A DNA stretch of 32,124 nt, taken from the IMG/VR virus record IMGVR_UViG_3300035698_004096, positions 1-32,124 of that record. One strand, given 5' to 3'. Below the pieces are notes generated by a model. The model was not told where the DNA came from and did not search any database. It worked only from the letters and a program-made list of their open reading frames with translations. The DNA is from a virus. Positions 870-32,124 of the stretch are shown here, one piece after another (positions within the stretch are counted from its first letter, which is position 1; each line of letters starts with the position of its first letter). The position numbers and the translations under genes were made by a program.

Positions 870-3800
870 ATGAATTTGAGAATTGCTTTTATTGATATTT
901 TAGGATTAACATATGATGGAAATACTCTTTCACAAAGAGGTTTAGGTGGATCAGAATCGGCCGTAATACTTCTTTCAAAATCTCTTTCAAAATTAGGTTT
1001 TAATGTAACAGTTTTTAATAATTGTTTAGATGATCATTGTTCTCCAGGAATATACGATGGTGTAGAATTTATAGATCTTACTCAAATAACAGATCATGAA
1101 ACTGATATATTAATATCTTCTCGTTCTACAAAACCATTTTTAGAAGAAAGATATGAATCTTTAAGAATATCTGCTAAACACAAAGTTATATGGATGCACG
1201 ATACTTTTATAATGGATGGAGGAGATAGAGCTTTAGAGCCACTTATAGTATCTGGAGCAATAGATGAAATATTTACATTATCTGATTTTCACACATCTTA
1301 TGTTACTACATGCTCTCATGGAGAAAAAAGAAATTTTGAGGTACTTAAAAACAAAATATTCCAAACCAGAAATGGCGCAGTAAAATATGGGCCAAATGAA
1401 GTAGATTTAAATGCAAAAGATCCTGATCTTTTTGTTTTTAATGCTTCTGTGACTAAAGGAATGGTTCCTTTAGTAGAACGAATTTGGCCAAGAGTGAAAG
1501 AGAGAATACCAAATGCGAAACTTACAATTATTGGTGGGTTCTACCGATTCAGAAGCAGCAGCGGTCCTGACGATCAAGAAAAAACATTTCAAGTACTCCT
1601 ACGAGACAGTAAACATAAGAAACTCGATATTGCTTTCACTGGCGTTATACCTCAAAAAGACATAGCTAATATACTAAAAGAAGCTTCTTTTATGATATAT
1701 CCATGCGCATTTCCAGAAACATTTGGAATATCATCGTTAGAATCTCTTTTATATAATACTCCACTTATAACATGTCGATTTGGCGCTCTTGAAGAAACTG
1801 CTATAGATTTGGCCTGTTATAAAATTGATTATCCAATTGAGCCAAATAATCTTTTTCCTAATATAAACACAGATAAACAAATCGATAAATTTGTTGACTT
1901 GGTTGTAAAAGCTCATTCTGACAAATATTTATATCAACAGAAATCAAATTATTGTAGCATTATTAAAGATATAGTAGGCTGGGATTCTATAGCTCTTCAA
2001 TGGAAGCAACATTTATATAGCAAAACTAATGAATATCTTCCTGTAAATGAATACAGAGAAGTAAGCAAAATTAACCAAAGAGTTCATAAAATTTTTGGCC
2101 GAAGATTCTCAAATCCAGAAGAAAATAAAATACAGCGAAATTCAAAGCAAAAAATAATTAATGTTATTACTCCATTTTATAATGCAAGAGAATATATTGA
2201 AGATTGTATAGATTCTGTAGCTTCTCAGGATTATGATGAGTACCAACACTTTTTAATAGATGATTGTTCAACAGATGATTCATATGATGTAGCAGAAAAT
2301 TATATTAAAACTCTTCCTAAAGAAGTTCAGAATCGTTTTGTTTTAATTAAGAATGAAGAAAACAAAGGTGCTTTATATAATCAAATAGAAATGATGCAAG
2401 ATATAAAAGCTCTTAGCAACACATGGAATAATATTATCATACTTCTAGATGGTGATGACAAATTAGTAAATGATCCAGAAATATTTCATTTTTATAATAA
2501 TCTTTATCATGAAGGATATGAATTTACTTATGGATCAATGTGGTCAATAACAGATAATATTCCATTAATAGCTCAAGATTATCCAGATGAAGTAAAACAG
2601 AATAGGTCATATAGAGAACACAAATTTGCGTGGAATATGCCTTACACTCATTTAAGAACTTTTAGGCTTGGAAATCTTCCATCGAGAACTGATTTATATC
2701 TAGATGAGAATGGTGAATATTATAGAGCCGGTGGCGATGGTGCTCTATTTTACGCCATAATAGAAAATACTGATCCAGACAAAGTACTAGCAGTAAAAGA
2801 TATAGTTTATGTGTATAATGATGATTCTCCATTGAATGATTATAAAGTGAATGCAAACGAACAATTTAAAAATGCACAATCGATTTTAAAAAAAAAGGAA
2901 AACAGTGAAGTGAAGAAAATATTAATCGCAATACCAACAGCCAGATATATTGAACCAGATACATTCAAATCCATTTATGATTTAGAAGTTCCTGATGGAT
3001 ATAAAACAGAATATCAGCATTTTTATGGCTACAATGTAGATCAAGTTAGAAATCTAATAGCAGATTGGATAGTTAATAAGGATTATGATTATCTATTCTC
3101 AGTAGATCATGATATAGTATTTAAGCCAGATACTCTTAAAAAGTTATTATATCATGATAAAGATATAGTAAGTGGCCTTTATTATCAACGAATTCCAGGT
3201 AAAGAAATATTAGAAATATATAAAGATGCTGGGTTTGATGGAGTTGCTCATATCGAGAAAAATGATATTGTAAGTGATTTTATGGAAATAAAAGCATGTG
3301 GATTTGGTTGTGTTCTTGTAAAAAAAGAAGTTTTCAATAAAACAGATCTTCCACATTTTTATTATAAGTCTGCAATTGATCACAAAAACACGATATCTGA
3401 AGATATTTATTTCTGTCAGAATGCTAGAGAATGTGGATTTAAACTTTACGCAGATACGACAATTCAGTGTGAGCATATAGGTGAAACAAGATGGAAGGTT
3501 GATATTAACACACGACCTAATGTCGAACCTCTTGAAAATAAAGAATATGAAAGACTTGTTAATTTGTATGAACAAAATCTATTGCCATATCAGCATCGTA
3601 CACATTTAAGAACAATGAGAGATGCACAACAGATATATCCAAATGTGATTTATGATATTGGATCTTGTGTCTTGCATTGGGCTAAGCCAGCTAAAAATAT
3701 ATGGCCTGATGCTAGAATTATTTTGTTTGAAGCTATGCCAGAAGTAGAACAATTATACAATAATCTTGGCTGGCAGGACTACATGATTGGACCTCTTGGA

Positions 3801-4214
3801 AACAAAGATAAAGAAGAAATCGTCTTTTATCAAAACACAATGTATCCCGGTGGAAATTCATATTATAGAGAAAATCCAGATATAAATCCAGAAGCGCTAA
3901 AGTATTTTCCAGATTCTTCAGCTCGTAAAATGATTATGAGAACGCTGGATTCTATGGTAGAACAATATAATATACCACTTCCAGATCTTATTAAAATGGA
4001 TGTTCAAGGAGCAGAATTAGATATTCTAAAAGGAGCTGAAAAAACTCTTAAATCTTGCAATCATATAATTTTAGAAGTTCAAAAAGTAGAATATAACAAA
4101 GGAGCTCCTCAGCAAAAAGAAGTTCTAGATTATATGAAATCTATAGGATTTGAAAACTGGGAAGAGTTTTGTTCACATGAATATGATAGTGATTGGCATT
4201 TTTGGAGAGTATAA
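870..4214 (+). CDS. Four-part glycosyltransferase / FkbM methyltransferase fusion
   Basis: A large multidomain sugar-transfer enzyme of 1114 aa. Residues 1 to about 390 look like a GT-B (GT4-type) glycosyltransferase: LGGSE near residue 25, IIGG near 220, and the EX7E motif with E283 and E291 in PETFGISSLE. Residues about 428-675 are a GT2 (GT-A) unit: VITPFYN at 432-438, IDD at 463-465 and DGDD at 527-530. Residues about 680-905 form a further GT-A-like unit with a D746-H-D748 motif. Residues about 925-1110 match FkbM-type methyltransferases: YDIGS at 928-932, LFEAMPE around E954 and KMDVQGAE at 1042-1049. The start is uncertain: GGAGA at 865-869 touches the ATG at 870 but would space well to a TTG at 876. 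The gene is driven by the late promoter at 808-815, so its product is probably made during assembly. Acceptor and sugars cannot be read; a virion fibre is my inference, a host surface glycan is the alternative. Confidence 0.88.
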   Translation: MNLRIAFIDILGLTYDGNTLSQRGLGGSESAVILLSKSLSKLGFNVTVFNNCLDDHCSPGIYDGVEFIDLTQITDHETDILISSRSTKPFLEERYESLRISAKHKVIWMHDTFIMDGGDRALEPLIVSGAIDEIFTLSDFHTSYVTTCSHGEKRNFEVLKNKIFQTRNGAVKYGPNEVDLNAKDPDLFVFNASVTKGMVPLVERIWPRVKERIPNAKLTIIGGFYRFRSSSGPDDQEKTFQVLLRDSKHKKLDIAFTGVIPQKDIANILKEASFMIYPCAFPETFGISSLESLLYNTPLITCRFGALEETAIDLACYKIDYPIEPNNLFPNINTDKQIDKFVDLVVKAHSDKYLYQQKSNYCSIIKDIVGWDSIALQWKQHLYSKTNEYLPVNEYREVSKINQRVHKIFGRRFSNPEENKIQRNSKQKIINVITPFYNAREYIEDCIDSVASQDYDEYQHFLIDDCSTDDSYDVAENYIKTLPKEVQNRFVLIKNEENKGALYNQIEMMQDIKALSNTWNNIIILLDGDDKLVNDPEIFHFYNNLYHEGYEFTYGSMWSITDNIPLIAQDYPDEVKQNRSYREHKFAWNMPYTHLRTFRLGNLPSRTDLYLDENGEYYRAGGDGALFYAIIENTDPDKVLAVKDIVYVYNDDSPLNDYKVNANEQFKNAQSILKKKENSEVKKILIAIPTARYIEPDTFKSIYDLEVPDGYKTEYQHFYGYNVDQVRNLIADWIVNKDYDYLFSVDHDIVFKPDTLKKLLYHDKDIVSGLYYQRIPGKEILEIYKDAGFDGVAHIEKNDIVSDFMEIKACGFGCVLVKKEVFNKTDLPHFYYKSAIDHKNTISEDIYFCQNARECGFKLYADTTIQCEHIGETRWKVDINTRPNVEPLENKEYERLVNLYEQNLLPYQHRTHLRTMRDAQQIYPNVIYDIGSCVLHWAKPAKNIWPDARIILFEAMPEVEQLYNNLGWQDYMIGPLGNKDKEEIVFYQNTMYPGGNSYYRENPDINPEALKYFPDSSARKMIMRTLDSMVEQYNIPLPDLIKMDVQGAELDILKGAEKTLKSCNHIILEVQKVEYNKGAPQQKEVLDYMKSIGFENWEEFCSHEYDSDWHFWRV

Positions 4215-5139: not shown

Positions 5140-5721
5140 TTATTTATTTATATAATCTTTTTCGCGAAACCACTGTGTAATAATCCATTTTTCGCCTTCT
5201 TTAATTCGACAGCCAGCATGCATTTCTTTTCTATCTGCTGTATAATTATAAAAAAGAGCATTACCTTTAATTGCTGGGACTTTAATCTGGCGCGATGGAA
5301 ATATTGTTTCTCCGCCTTTTTCTGGCGTATTAAGATAAAGAATCAAAGTTGCATTTCGATTAACATCATCAGGTAAATGATCAATATAATCAGAATGAGG
5401 TTTAAAGAAATCCCCGACTTTGTAATGCATTAAAACACATGATTCGGATTTATCAATTGGCCAATTCACTAAATTTGAAATTTTCTGTTTTAAAGTAGGA
5501 ATATCAATAGATAATGCTGAACACTTACGATAATATTCATCGACATATGAATTACCATCTGATGAATATACTCCGCCAGATTTCAAATCCCACTCACTTT
5601 TCATTATCTTATCGCATTCTATATCAGATAAAAAATTCTCAATTAGATATATATTGCTATTTGGTTTAATTTCATTTATTTTCCACGACACATCAGTAAA
5701 TAATGTTGGTAGCTTTTTCAT
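5140..5721 (-). CDS. 2OG-Fe(II) oxygenase, prolyl-4-hydroxylase-like
   Basis: A 193-aa dioxygenase expected to use 2-oxoglutarate, O2 and Fe(II) to hydroxylate a target. The metal site is visible: H109-S-D111 (HxD) and H168. K178 lies ten residues after H168, the spacing and residue of the 2-oxoglutarate-binding lysine in prolyl 4-hydroxylases; lysyl hydroxylases have Arg there. The stretch LILYLNTPEKGGET and the ending WIITQWF are also family-typical. The length fits a single catalytic domain. The start codon overlaps the stop of the Hint-fibre gene by one base (TAATG) with no clear ribosome site, suggesting translational coupling to it. Such oxygenases are common in aquatic T4-like phages, usually with unknown substrates. 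A virion protein target is inference from context. Confidence 0.9.
   Translation of the reverse strand: MKKLPTLFTDVSWKINEIKPNSNIYLIENFLSDIECDKIMKSEWDLKSGGVYSSDGNSYVDEYYRKCSALSIDIPTLKQKISNLVNWPIDKSESCVLMHYKVGDFFKPHSDYIDHLPDDVNRNATLILYLNTPEKGGETIFPSRQIKVPAIKGNALFYNYTADRKEMHAGCRIKEGEKWIITQWFREKDYINK
5145..5152 (-). promoter_or_regulatory. T4-type late promoter octamer TATAAATA
   Basis: TATTTATA on the plus strand gives TATAAATA on the minus strand, with a second, overlapping AATAAATA at 5141-5148. Predicted initiation near 5139 gives a leader of about 20 nt before the ATG at 5118. The octamer overlaps the end of the upstream oxygenase gene. Confidence 0.65.
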
Positions 5722-7661
5722 TAAGTACCAATTTTAGAATCATAATCAATTATGCTCTCATCAGCCCAACCAGAGAAGCAGAATCCATCTACATACATTG
5801 TTCTACAATTATCTAATGCTAAAGAATATAATTGAGTATCTGGTGCAAAATTAGTATCTTCTATCATGCTAGTTAATGGCATCCATTTTAATGAACCATA
5901 TATCGCAAGTTCATGCACGTTTGGTTTAAGAATATTCATCTTATCTGGATGACATGGTCTATAAATTTCTTTCCAAGATGTATTATTGGTGTTATCAAAT
6001 AATTCGAATTCACCCATCCAATCATTATTCACATAATAATCATAATCTATAACTGCCCATCCTGTTTTAGTCCAAGTTGGGTGTTCTGCAGTATTATAAC
6101 ATATATTATTTAGTTTCCACATGCTACGATTACCAAGTATTGGCTTCTGGATCGCGCGCACCGTATTGATTGACCAGCGTCCACAAACTCTGTCTCCAGT
6201 AATAATTTCACCAATAGGTTTTGTGGTTCCATCTGCCATAAGGACTTTTTGCCAAGCAAAGAAACATGAGACGGGTGGTGGACTTACTGGTGGATTTGGG
6301 AAGGCGCTTGTATAACTGCTAGAAGTAGCATCTACTGTTTCACCAGTAAATGTTGCTTCTGATGCAATGCTCTGCCAAGTACCACTTGATTTAACATAAA
6401 CATTTGTAGCCGGCTTCCATGTGCCAGCATCTTTAGCATAAAAAGCTGTTGAAATTTTCCAAGTACCACTATCTTTAACATTCCAGTCAAACCCAATATA
6501 ATTATCCAAATCAAAACCAGTTATATTAGTTCTAGCTACAGTACTAGAATCAGTCCCCTCACCTTTCCATATTATTTCAATTGTATTATTTCCAGAAGAT
6601 AAATTTTGAATTCCAGCAAAACCAGCAGACCACAAAGAACCAGAACTTCCTGTAAATGAACTTACCCTATCTTCTGGTTCAACTGAAATATCTGTAGTAT
6701 AAACATCAGATCCATTTATTTGTATATTTGATAACCACGATCTAGAGGTGTTATTATAAGAACCCCACCACGAACTAAGTATCAAATTGTTTCCACTACT
6801 ATCTAAATTTACTGTTATTGTTTCTGCTGTTTGATCTGACGTAGAAACTGTTGTTTGCCTATTTTCAGCGTGTGATGAATAAACATGTCTAAATTCAGAT
6901 CTATCAAGAGCTAAAATAGTTCTAAATGACGCAGTCATAATAGAATTCCAATCTTCAGCAGCTCTAAGATCATAATTAGTATTAGCTGCAGGAGAAGCAT
7001 TCATAACATACCAATATGGATAATCTACATCAGACCCAGCTAAATATGAAGAATCTATATATCCATATGGATTGTTATTAGTATCATCCCATAGCAAAAG
7101 TCTAGTTCGTACATCCGAACTTGCCGAAGTCTGATCACTGCTATATGCACACGATCCAACAATAGTATAATCACCAGGTGGCACTGTTAATGTATTAAGT
7201 GTTTGATATTGATCATCACCATCTGTTCCATCAGATCCACCTGTTATAGAAGTGTGTGTTAATGTGTTATTAAATATATCTGTGCCAACAAGTTCTACTG
7301 CTGTTAAATAAGCATCTTGAATTTTTGCTGTGCTTCCAGATCTTCGGCAATATTGTAATGAAAATGTTGTAGAAGCTGGTGATATTCCTTCTTCATATAT
7401 TGCGACACCAGTTACAGCCATTTGATCAGTTGTATCTTTTGGAGTCAATATGACTTCATACATTTGTATAGCATCAGTAGAATTATATAACTGAACTCTA
7501 ACATCAGATGAAGTGCTACTTTGAGTAACAAGGCACGTGAAAAAAATAGCATAGTTAGTACTAGCTACTGGAGTAAAAGTAAGTGTAACTTTATCTTGAT
7601 AAGTAGTAGAAGTAGTCGAGCTATTTCCTAAACTTGTATTGCTATAATAAGTTTTTGCCAT
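5721..7661 (-). CDS. Tail-fibre-like protein with C-terminal Hint (hedgehog/intein) domain
   Basis: A 646-aa protein. Residues 1 to about 385 are three beta-rich modules of about 125 residues, ending near AVELVG, TILALD and ITGFDLD. Residues about 396-432 hold three 14-residue GTWK/GTWQ repeats (W401, W415, W429), then a Pro-rich linker (NPPVSPPPVS). Residues 466-646 look like a Hint domain: C466 opens CFFAWQKVLMADGTTKPIGE, then GDRV, the block-B motif T524-A-E-H527-P, and a final MYVDGFCFSG. The usual intein-ending His-Asn is not visible, so N-terminal cleavage or thioester transfer (hedgehog-like) is more likely than splicing. The first part probably sits on the virion as a fibre or decoration. 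The oxygenase gene follows with a one-base overlap. Confidence 0.85.
   Translation of the reverse strand: MAKTYYSNTSLGNSSTTSTTYQDKVTLTFTPVASTNYAIFFTCLVTQSSTSSDVRVQLYNSTDAIQMYEVILTPKDTTDQMAVTGVAIYEEGISPASTTFSLQYCRRSGSTAKIQDAYLTAVELVGTDIFNNTLTHTSITGGSDGTDGDDQYQTLNTLTVPPGDYTIVGSCAYSSDQTSASSDVRTRLLLWDDTNNNPYGYIDSSYLAGSDVDYPYWYVMNASPAANTNYDLRAAEDWNSIMTASFRTILALDRSEFRHVYSSHAENRQTTVSTSDQTAETITVNLDSSGNNLILSSWWGSYNNTSRSWLSNIQINGSDVYTTDISVEPEDRVSSFTGSSGSLWSAGFAGIQNLSSGNNTIEIIWKGEGTDSSTVARTNITGFDLDNYIGFDWNVKDSGTWKISTAFYAKDAGTWKPATNVYVKSSGTWQSIASEATFTGETVDATSSSYTSAFPNPPVSPPPVSCFFAWQKVLMADGTTKPIGEIITGDRVCGRWSINTVRAIQKPILGNRSMWKLNNICYNTAEHPTWTKTGWAVIDYDYYVNNDWMGEFELFDNTNNTSWKEIYRPCHPDKMNILKPNVHELAIYGSLKWMPLTSMIEDTNFAPDTQLYSLALDNCRTMYVDGFCFSGWADESIIDYDSKIGT
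6362..6487 (-). repeat. Three 42-bp (14-aa) GTWK repeats
   Basis: The protein repeat reads roughly GTW(K/Q)xxxxxYxKxx, with tryptophans 14 residues apart (W401, W415, W429). Such units form small beta modules between the head and tail parts of phage fibre proteins. Here they connect the beta modules to the Pro-rich linker and Hint domain. Confidence 0.65.
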
Positions 7662-30286: not shown

Positions 30287-31018
30287 ATGACATTTCCAAA
30301 AATTGATTACCCAATAATAATGATAGAAGTTCCAACTACAAAAAAATCATTAAAATTTAGACCAATGATAGTAAAAGAAGAAAAAATTCTTTTAACTTCA
30401 AAAGCCGGAGATTCAGAAACAGATATATTTCTTCATATAAAGCAAATTGTAAATAACTGTTGCTTAGAAGAAAGTGATGTGTTTGATATCGATAAAATTT
30501 CTTTATTAGATTTAGAGTATTTGTTTTTAAAACTCAGAGGATATTCGATTGGTAATGTTATCAATTTGAGTTATAAAGATATAGAAGATGATGTAACAAG
30601 AGATTTTGCTATTAATTTAGATGATATTAAAATAGTTCATCCTAACACAGATCCTAACAATAACATTATTAGTGTTAGTGAACATATCAATGTTATTATG
30701 CGATATCCGCCAGCAACATTATATTCTAATAAAGACTTTTTGAATGCTGAAGATAATGAAGAGATAGCTCAAGAAATTTTAATAAGTTGTATATATGCTA
30801 TTGAAGAATCAGGTCAAAAACACATCGTAGATCATGATAAAGAAAAAACAGAATTAGAAGAATTCATTAACAATTTAGAAGCTGGTTCTGCCAGAAAATT
30901 AAATGATTTCTTCGAAAATGTTCCAAAAATGGAATATATTATTAAATACACAAACGACGCTGGGACAGAACGAGAAATAGTTCTAAATACGTTAAACGAT
31001 TTTTTTACATTGCTATGA
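30287..31018 (+). CDS. 26: Baseplate hub assembly protein gp26
   Basis: A 243-aa protein (T4 gp26 208 aa). LKFRPMIVKEEKILLTSKAG near residue 23 and IKQIVNNCCLEESDVFDIDK, ISLLDLEYLFLKLRGYSIGN are typical of the T4 baseplate gp26 family (P.....RP....EEK.LL ... I...NC ... L...D.E.LF..LR..S.G). gp26 helps assemble the central hub and tape-measure complex and is not known to remain in the virion. AAAGGA ten bases before the ATG is the ribosome site. Its last codons include a run of seven T (31000-31006), and its TGA overlaps the ATG of the next gene (ATGA). Confidence 0.9.
   Translation: MTFPKIDYPIIMIEVPTTKKSLKFRPMIVKEEKILLTSKAGDSETDIFLHIKQIVNNCCLEESDVFDIDKISLLDLEYLFLKLRGYSIGNVINLSYKDIEDDVTRDFAINLDDIKIVHPNTDPNNNIISVSEHINVIMRYPPATLYSNKDFLNAEDNEEIAQEILISCIYAIEESGQKHIVDHDKEKTELEEFINNLEAGSARKLNDFFENVPKMEYIIKYTNDAGTEREIVLNTLNDFFTLL
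31000..31006 (+). promoter_or_regulatory. Candidate -1 frameshift site T TTT TTT at the gp26 end
   Basis: In the gp26 frame the codons are GAT TTT TTT ACA, so the seven T fit X XXY YYZ exactly. A one-base backward slip puts ribosomes into the frame of the 58-aa downstream ORF, with no stop between (codons TAC ATT GCT, then its ATG at 31015). This would make a gp26-gp51 fusion joined about 4 codons before the normal gp26 stop. I see no clear downstream stem-loop. Confidence 0.6.
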
Positions 31019-31191
31019 GTCATGATACATTAGAGAATTGGTACATGACTATATTCTCTATGATTCATAGATTTAAATACAATTTGAATGAAATAGAAAA
31101 CATGATTATTTACGAAAAAGATTTATATCTACAAATGGTATTAGATGCCGTAAAACAAGAACAGGACATGGCTCAATCATATGGCTCTTAA
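31015..31191 (+). CDS. gp51-like baseplate hub assembly protein (58 aa)
   Basis: A 58-aa frame read directly from the sequence, starting MSHDTLENWYMTIFSMIHRF and ending AQSYGS. The middle, YNLNEIENMIIYEKDLYLQM, resembles the short C-terminal 'F.M......L.E.E.M...E...Y...L' pattern of small T4-like gp51 and other tail-chaperone second parts. gp51 of T4 (about 249 aa) is required for hub assembly. The ATG overlaps the gp26 TGA, there is no ribosome site, and the frame is -1 relative to gp26, which supports expression by coupling or frameshift. It overlaps the next gene by 11 bases. Confidence 0.7.
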   Translation: MSHDTLENWYMTIFSMIHRFKYNLNEIENMIIYEKDLYLQMVLDAVKQEQDMAQSYGS

Positions 31192-32124
31192 TAAAGACAC
31201 AATAGGATCAGTATTATCTTCAGTTTCTTTCTTTAAAGGAATGAAAGATAATACTGATAAAATACAGCAAGTATCTCAACTAGTATCAAAGAATGCTGGT
31301 CAGATTCGAAATGTGTTTGATAAAGTTGAATCAACTATGTCAACAAAATCAAGCACTAATATAGCATCTAGTCTAGAATCTGGACTAAATGATGTTACTA
31401 GAGTAATTGAAGAAAAAGATAGAAACACTCAAGGCAGTTTTTCAAACATAAAGCAAAAAATGTCTTTTATGAGAGATACATTAGATAATGTAAATGAAGA
31501 AGTGTGGGCTATTAAAAGCTCAGCATATAGAAATAGAACTTCTATTAAAACAATGCAATCGAATTTTGATTCTATACAAGCTAATTTTCAAAGACAGCAA
31601 TTTGCGAATATAGAACAAAAAAGAGAAGATGATTTTAGATATACTACTTTAAATCAACAAGTTATGCAAAATAAATTAGAAGTTGGACAGGCTAGAAGCG
31701 CTCTTGCAGATTTAGCAGCTACGCTTCAAAGCGCTGGATCAAATAATCCTAGTGGAAGTATTATAGGAAGTTATTTAGCTTATCAAATAGCAAAATTTGC
31801 TTTAAGAAATCCTTGGGTTCTTGCTGCTGGAGCAGGAATATTAGCTGTTGGCGCTATAGCCAGCTTTATAGCTCCAAAGGGAGATCCAGGAGAAAAAGTT
31901 AAGTCTGATGTAGATAAATTAAAAAAAGATCTTGGTACTGGGGCTGATGGTGGAATGAGCCCAAGGCGTGATCCAAGAAGAGGAGAAACTAAGTCTTCTG
32001 TTGCAACACAACAAAGAACAAACATTGGAAGAACTAAAAAATTAACTGATGGATTTGGACCCGGTGGAGCTGGCGGAAATGTGCACGGCCAGATTGAAAG
32101 ATTGTATGAAGGTGGTAAACCAAA
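31181..32124 (+). CDS. Probable tail tape-measure / hub protein, N-terminal part (runs off right edge)
   Basis: An open frame from the ATG at 31181 to the window end, at least 314 residues. The start (MALNKDTIGSVLSSVSFFKG) is followed by a long helical, Gln/Asn/Ser/Lys-rich region (residues about 20-190), probably coiled coil. A hydrophobic segment lies at residues 211-231 (PWVLAAGAGILAVGAIASFI). Then comes a polar, Gly/Pro-rich stretch. Long helices plus a hydrophobic segment are usual in tape measures, and the gene directly follows the gp26/gp51 chaperones, the normal position. A large virion protein with an enzyme domain further on cannot be excluded. Confidence 0.7.
   Translation, partial: MALNKDTIGSVLSSVSFFKGMKDNTDKIQQVSQLVSKNAGQIRNVFDKVESTMSTKSSTNIASSLESGLNDVTRVIEEKDRNTQGSFSNIKQKMSFMRDTLDNVNEEVWAIKSSAYRNRTSIKTMQSNFDSIQANFQRQQFANIEQKREDDFRYTTLNQQVMQNKLEVGQARSALADLAATLQSAGSNNPSGSIIGSYLAYQIAKFALRNPWVLAAGAGILAVGAIASFIAPKGDPGEKVKSDVDKLKKDLGTGADGGMSPRRDPRRGETKSSVATQQRTNIGRTKKLTDGFGPGGAGGNVHGQIERLYEGGKP

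Follow-up and report, generated by a model that had tools for sequence, protein, structure and literature searches.

Does the gp26 gene at the end of this T4-type phage sequence encode one protein or, by a change of reading frame, two? The window that we analysed is the whole stretch of 32,124 nucleotides (32% GC) spanning positions 1-32,124 of the IMG/VR virus record IMGVR_UViG_3300035698_004096. In its last part, gp26 runs into a gp51-like reading frame in the -1 register, whose end overlaps the start of a putative tape-measure gene (Table 1). The original prediction was that a -1 frameshift fuses gp26 to the gp51-like frame. Our reading of the sequence agrees: the tail assembly chaperone (TAC) gene of this phage very probably contains a programmed -1 ribosomal frameshift, which would yield two products, TAC-N (243 aa) and TAC-NC (301 aa). 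The fusion is strongly supported by a conserved heptamer, by an open -1 frame, by relatives in which this frame lacks a start codon, by a covarying stem, and by the fused organisation of T4 gp51.

Table 1. Features of the gp26/gp51-like junction (positions in the window).
Feature	Coordinates	Strand	Basis or remark
gp26 / TAC-N gene	30287..31018	+	243 aa, zero-frame product
Slippery heptamer T TTT TTT, gp26 frame	31000..31006	+	sequence; conserved in 95/97 representatives
-1 frame extension, gp51-like / TAC-C	31006..31191	+	61 aa after the predicted slip; stop 31189-31191
Spacer between heptamer and stem-loop, 6 nt	31007..31012	+	fold
Outer stem, 5' arm (CTATGAGTCA)	31013..31022	+	fold z -3.93; covariation in relatives
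Zero-frame stop of gp26, TGA	31016..31018	+	sequence
Inner hairpin, 31031-31042 with 31048-31060, one bulged base	31031..31060	+	fold of window sequence
Outer stem, 3' arm (TGATTCATAG)	31061..31070	+	fold; covariation in relatives
Putative tape-measure gene	31181..32124	+	begins within the last bases of the -1 frame; clipped by window end

The gp26 gene and the gp51-like frame

The gp26 product is a member of the Pfam family PF12322, T4_baseplate (E 3.5e-39, 135.2 bits, for a gathering cut-off of 24.5), and its PHROG match is phrog_150 (E 3.7e-41). We turned to fold comparison because a search of PDB sequences with the gp26 profile gave nothing convincing. The AlphaFold model of gp26 has a pLDDT of 92.4, and the best matches of its N-terminal 92 residues are 3fgx (Z 8.7), which is uncharacterised, the HK97 tail assembly chaperone 2ob9 (Z 6.9, 85 aligned, rmsd 4.1), and YqbN, 3klu (Z 6.8). 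The first clearly unrelated row has Z 2.8. The modelled N-terminal domain resembles a TAC-like fold; the Z values are moderate, and it is the agreement of the top rows that is informative. The model of the T4 gp51-like protein (pLDDT 83, six sequences) gave weak fold matches, with 2ob9 (Z 3.7) among unrelated rows.

In the window, the -1 frame is open between about position 30946 and its stop. It remains so, as had been predicted, through a 58-aa ORF starting at 31015, which matches phrog_634, 'baseplate hub assembly catalyst' (gp51), with an E-value of 2.5e-15 over 31015-31188. The predicted fusion would contain the junction-spanning peptide EIVLNTLNDFFYIAMSHDTLENWYMTIFSMIHR. In the relatives with enough sequence, the -1 frame is likewise open for about 140-190 nt beyond the gp26 stop and encodes the conserved pattern L.YY..NFAL.QHHKYS..E.ENMIP.ER. 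The gp51-like part in the window is divergent, with HRFKYN where relatives have HHKYS. The ORF that begins at 31181 is tentatively called a tape measure by its position and composition; it is incomplete at the window end, and had no confident family match among the Pfam and PHROG profiles.

The gp51-like ORF could instead be a separate 58-aa protein, made by termination-reinitiation: its ATG, at 31015, shares bases with the gp26 stop (ATGA). Besides this overlap in the window, such a scenario would fit the annotation of gp51 as a separate gene in some databases, and 52 of 95 relatives do have an ATG among the first 13 codons of their -1 frame. However, the position of the ATG is not conserved, and 26 of the 95, including ACG-2014b and Aeh1, have no ATG, GTG or TTG in these codons. 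The 58-aa ORF had been described as lacking a ribosome site, and we found no Shine-Dalgarno-like sequence before it in the window. Nor do relatives provide the good ribosome site for the second ORF that would have spoken against the original prediction: 93 of the 95 have no Shine-Dalgarno-like sequence upstream of a possible -1-frame start. Finally, reinitiation leaves unexplained both the nucleotide-level conservation of the heptamer and the covarying stem (see below), and T4 gp51 is no short protein but a complete fusion. We regard this scenario as very unlikely. Coupled reinitiation at the ATGA of the window is possible, but it is not a conserved route.

The frequent lack of a start codon of its own explains why gp51 is missed or truncated in some phage records. 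The gp51-like region is unannotated in ACG-2014b and Aeh1. In several phage records, unannotated gp51 shows up as what seems to be an intergenic gap separating gp26 from the gene after it: loci L081 (3712-3891), L087 (3709-3874), L086 (3745-4262), and L273 (1605-2108).

Conservation of the slippery heptamer

The seven T noted in the original prediction fall in the gp26 frame as GAT TTT TTT ACA TTG CTA TGA; they fit the X XXY YYZ pattern and end, as was stated there, 9 bases before the stop codon. The heptamer alone is weak evidence because the genes of this 32% GC window contain 79 in-frame X XXY YYZ sites in 9,833 codons. Two neighbouring upstream genes each have one near their stop as well.

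We gathered relatives of gp26 from IMG/VR and from named phages, and kept 97 representatives at <80% identity. Conservation of the heptamer in relatives had been proposed as a check on the frameshift, and 95 of the 97 have T TTT TT[C/T/A] in the gp26 frame at the matching site, with one to three codons separating it from the stop. The two upstream genes with a heptamer near their stop served as negative controls, and it was kept in none of the 89 relative hits of one and none of the 104 of the other. Among the Straboviridae, the family of T4, Aeh1 and EniLVp02 retain the heptamer; the two representatives in which it is absent are of the Ackermannviridae type.

One could argue that gp26 simply ends in a conserved Asp/Ser-Phe-Phe, that AT-rich genomes spell this end with the heptamer as a by-product, and that gp51 is a decaying or independent frame. 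T-rich codons do dominate elsewhere in gp26 (GAT 80%, TTT 71%), and heptamers are common in the window. Yet the codon preceding the two Phe codons has T at its third position in 95 out of 95 cases, over six amino acids (D, S, N, T, A or R; log10 P about -19), and the P-site Phe is TTT in all 95, whereas TTC accounts for 29% elsewhere in the gene (log10 P -14), P values that treat related phages as independent and are thus indicative only. The A-site codon is TTC in 51 representatives, TTT in 42, and TTA in 2. The heptamer is present even in phage DLP_6, whose GC content is 55%, and the other near-stop heptamers were not conserved. These observations already contradict the by-product explanation, to which we give next to no chance of being right. 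The codon pattern is the one that -1 slippage (X XXY YYZ) would need, and differs from what conservation of the protein by itself would produce.

A downstream stem-loop and other RNA signals

The original prediction had missed a structure that we add here: the 31013-31070 segment folds into a stem-loop of -20.6 kcal/mol, with a z-score of -3.93 and none of 200 shuffles as stable. When the outer stem was placed on 30 relatives, 83% of the cells were paired and double changes occurred in 7 of the 10 pairs. With 41 relatives these values became 86% and, for compensatory changes, again 7 of 10, when 0 of 500 shuffles reached the observed values and slid controls gave 24-37%; part of this pairing could stem from the coded peptide because the stem lies within coding sequence. 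Averaged over 95 loci, the 70 nt downstream of the heptamer have a z of -2.49, compared with -0.46 in other parts of the gene. A search for Rfam families in the junction region returned only chance matches.

Many cyanophages have instead a compact hairpin 5 nt downstream of the heptamer (93% paired, with fewer double changes), and roughly 9-10 nt ahead of the heptamer they carry a GGAGG-like stretch, in a position similar to that of the stimulator in Escherichia coli dnaX. Upstream stretches resembling a Shine-Dalgarno sequence were found in 47 of the 51 loci with the TTC form of the heptamer versus 12 of the 42 with the TTT form; before the heptamer of the window there is none. We tentatively suggest that the slip site T TTT TTY might be an ancient trait of T4-type chaperone genes and that the stimulator might have switched between lineages, a history that seems to us possible rather than probable. 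In such a history, the group of the window would use a long covarying stem, with 38 nt enclosed between its arms, and many cyanophages the upstream GGAGG and the compact hairpin. Ackermannviridae would have retained a non-canonical ATT TTC at the junction instead, in many cases with a -1 frame that lacks a start codon.

Ackermannviridae and related Vibrio phages show the -1 layout of gp26 and gp51 without T TTT TTY (locus L086, 3718-3905, and loci L268, L269, L272-L276, L278, L088, and L270). The junction at the gp26 stop is mostly a conserved ATT TTC in Ackermannviridae-type phages, and CTT TTC or GTT TTT in the Vibrio phages. The start of the -1 frame has no ATG in Kuttervirus, Taipeivirus, and phiEa2809, and is TAATG in others.

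Predicted products and comparison with known systems

We infer slippage at T TTT TTT, and its efficiency, from these elements. Most ribosomes would read gp26 to the stop at 31016 and produce TAC-N. A minority would pause at the stem-loop, where the P- and A-site tRNA-Phe would slip back by one base on T TTT TTT, and the slipped ribosomes would then continue in the gp51-like frame to 31189 and produce TAC-NC. In phage lambda, the ribosome slips into the -1 frame shortly before the short chaperone gene ends, which gives gpG and gpGT, and the tape-measure gene follows directly; this is the arrangement proposed in the window. The slippery sequences differ, being G GGA AAG in lambda and T TTT TTY in the group of the window. 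If the two products act like gpG and gpGT, TAC-N would cover the tape-measure protein, whose putative gene comes next, and tail-tube subunits would be brought in during assembly by the domain that only TAC-NC carries.

The two parts of the locus are homologous to T4 gp26 and gp51. T4 itself needs no frameshift, since its genes 26 and 51 are separate and divergent. T4 gp26 (208 aa) matches PF12322 only. In T4 gp51 (249 aa), the match to PF12322 covers residues 1-201 and that to phrog_634 residues 147-246, and the profile of the predicted fusions aligns with this protein across the junction. T4 gp26 is therefore like the short form, and T4 gp51, with a gp26-like domain followed by a C-terminal domain, is collinear with the predicted fusion. 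Since T4 gp51 consists of a gp26-like domain and a gp51 tail, the short and long forms are paralogous genes in T4, whereas in the group of the window both apparently come from one gene. Matches to T4 gp51 were found in 1,339 phage records, mostly from phages of enterobacteria. These comparisons suggest what gp26 and gp51, two hub proteins of T4 that are poorly understood, probably are: a single tail assembly chaperone in a short and a long form.

The original prediction held that frameshifting is not an accepted feature of T4-type gp26/gp51. This view is outdated, given that PMC10885494 and PMC12846349 credit the identification of T4-like TAC genes to Vladimirov, Gautam and Davidson (Virology 2022, 566:9-15; doi 10.1016/j.virol.2021.11.003). 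In the passages citing this work, PMC12846349 presents poly-T sequences as known -1 signals in the TAC-N genes of T4-like phages, and PMC10885494 mentions that some T4-like phages do without frameshifting and have two TAC genes, a short one and a long fused one. Because both articles cite Vladimirov et al. 2022 for T4-like TACs, the frameshift predicted in the window would be a new instance of a published kind, and would bring a divergent T4-type phage from the environment under the chaperone-frameshift rule. The TAC locus of Vandenendeviridae and Andersonviridae (phage Adele), as outlined in PMC12846349, also has a -1 open frame after TAC-N and a conserved T-rich motif before the tape measure. 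The motif is GTTTTT in these families and T TTT TTY in the group of the window.

Elsewhere in the window, a probable fibre protein with collagen-like GYTGS/GDQG repeats lies at the edge, on the minus strand (3-770). It is followed by a 1,114-aa protein (870-4214) that, by its appearance, has glycosyltransferase domains and an FkbM-like methyltransferase end. Within a probable tail protein encoded at 5721-7661 on the minus strand, the segment CFFAWQKVLMADGTTKPIGEIITGDRV resembles a Hint/intein-type domain.
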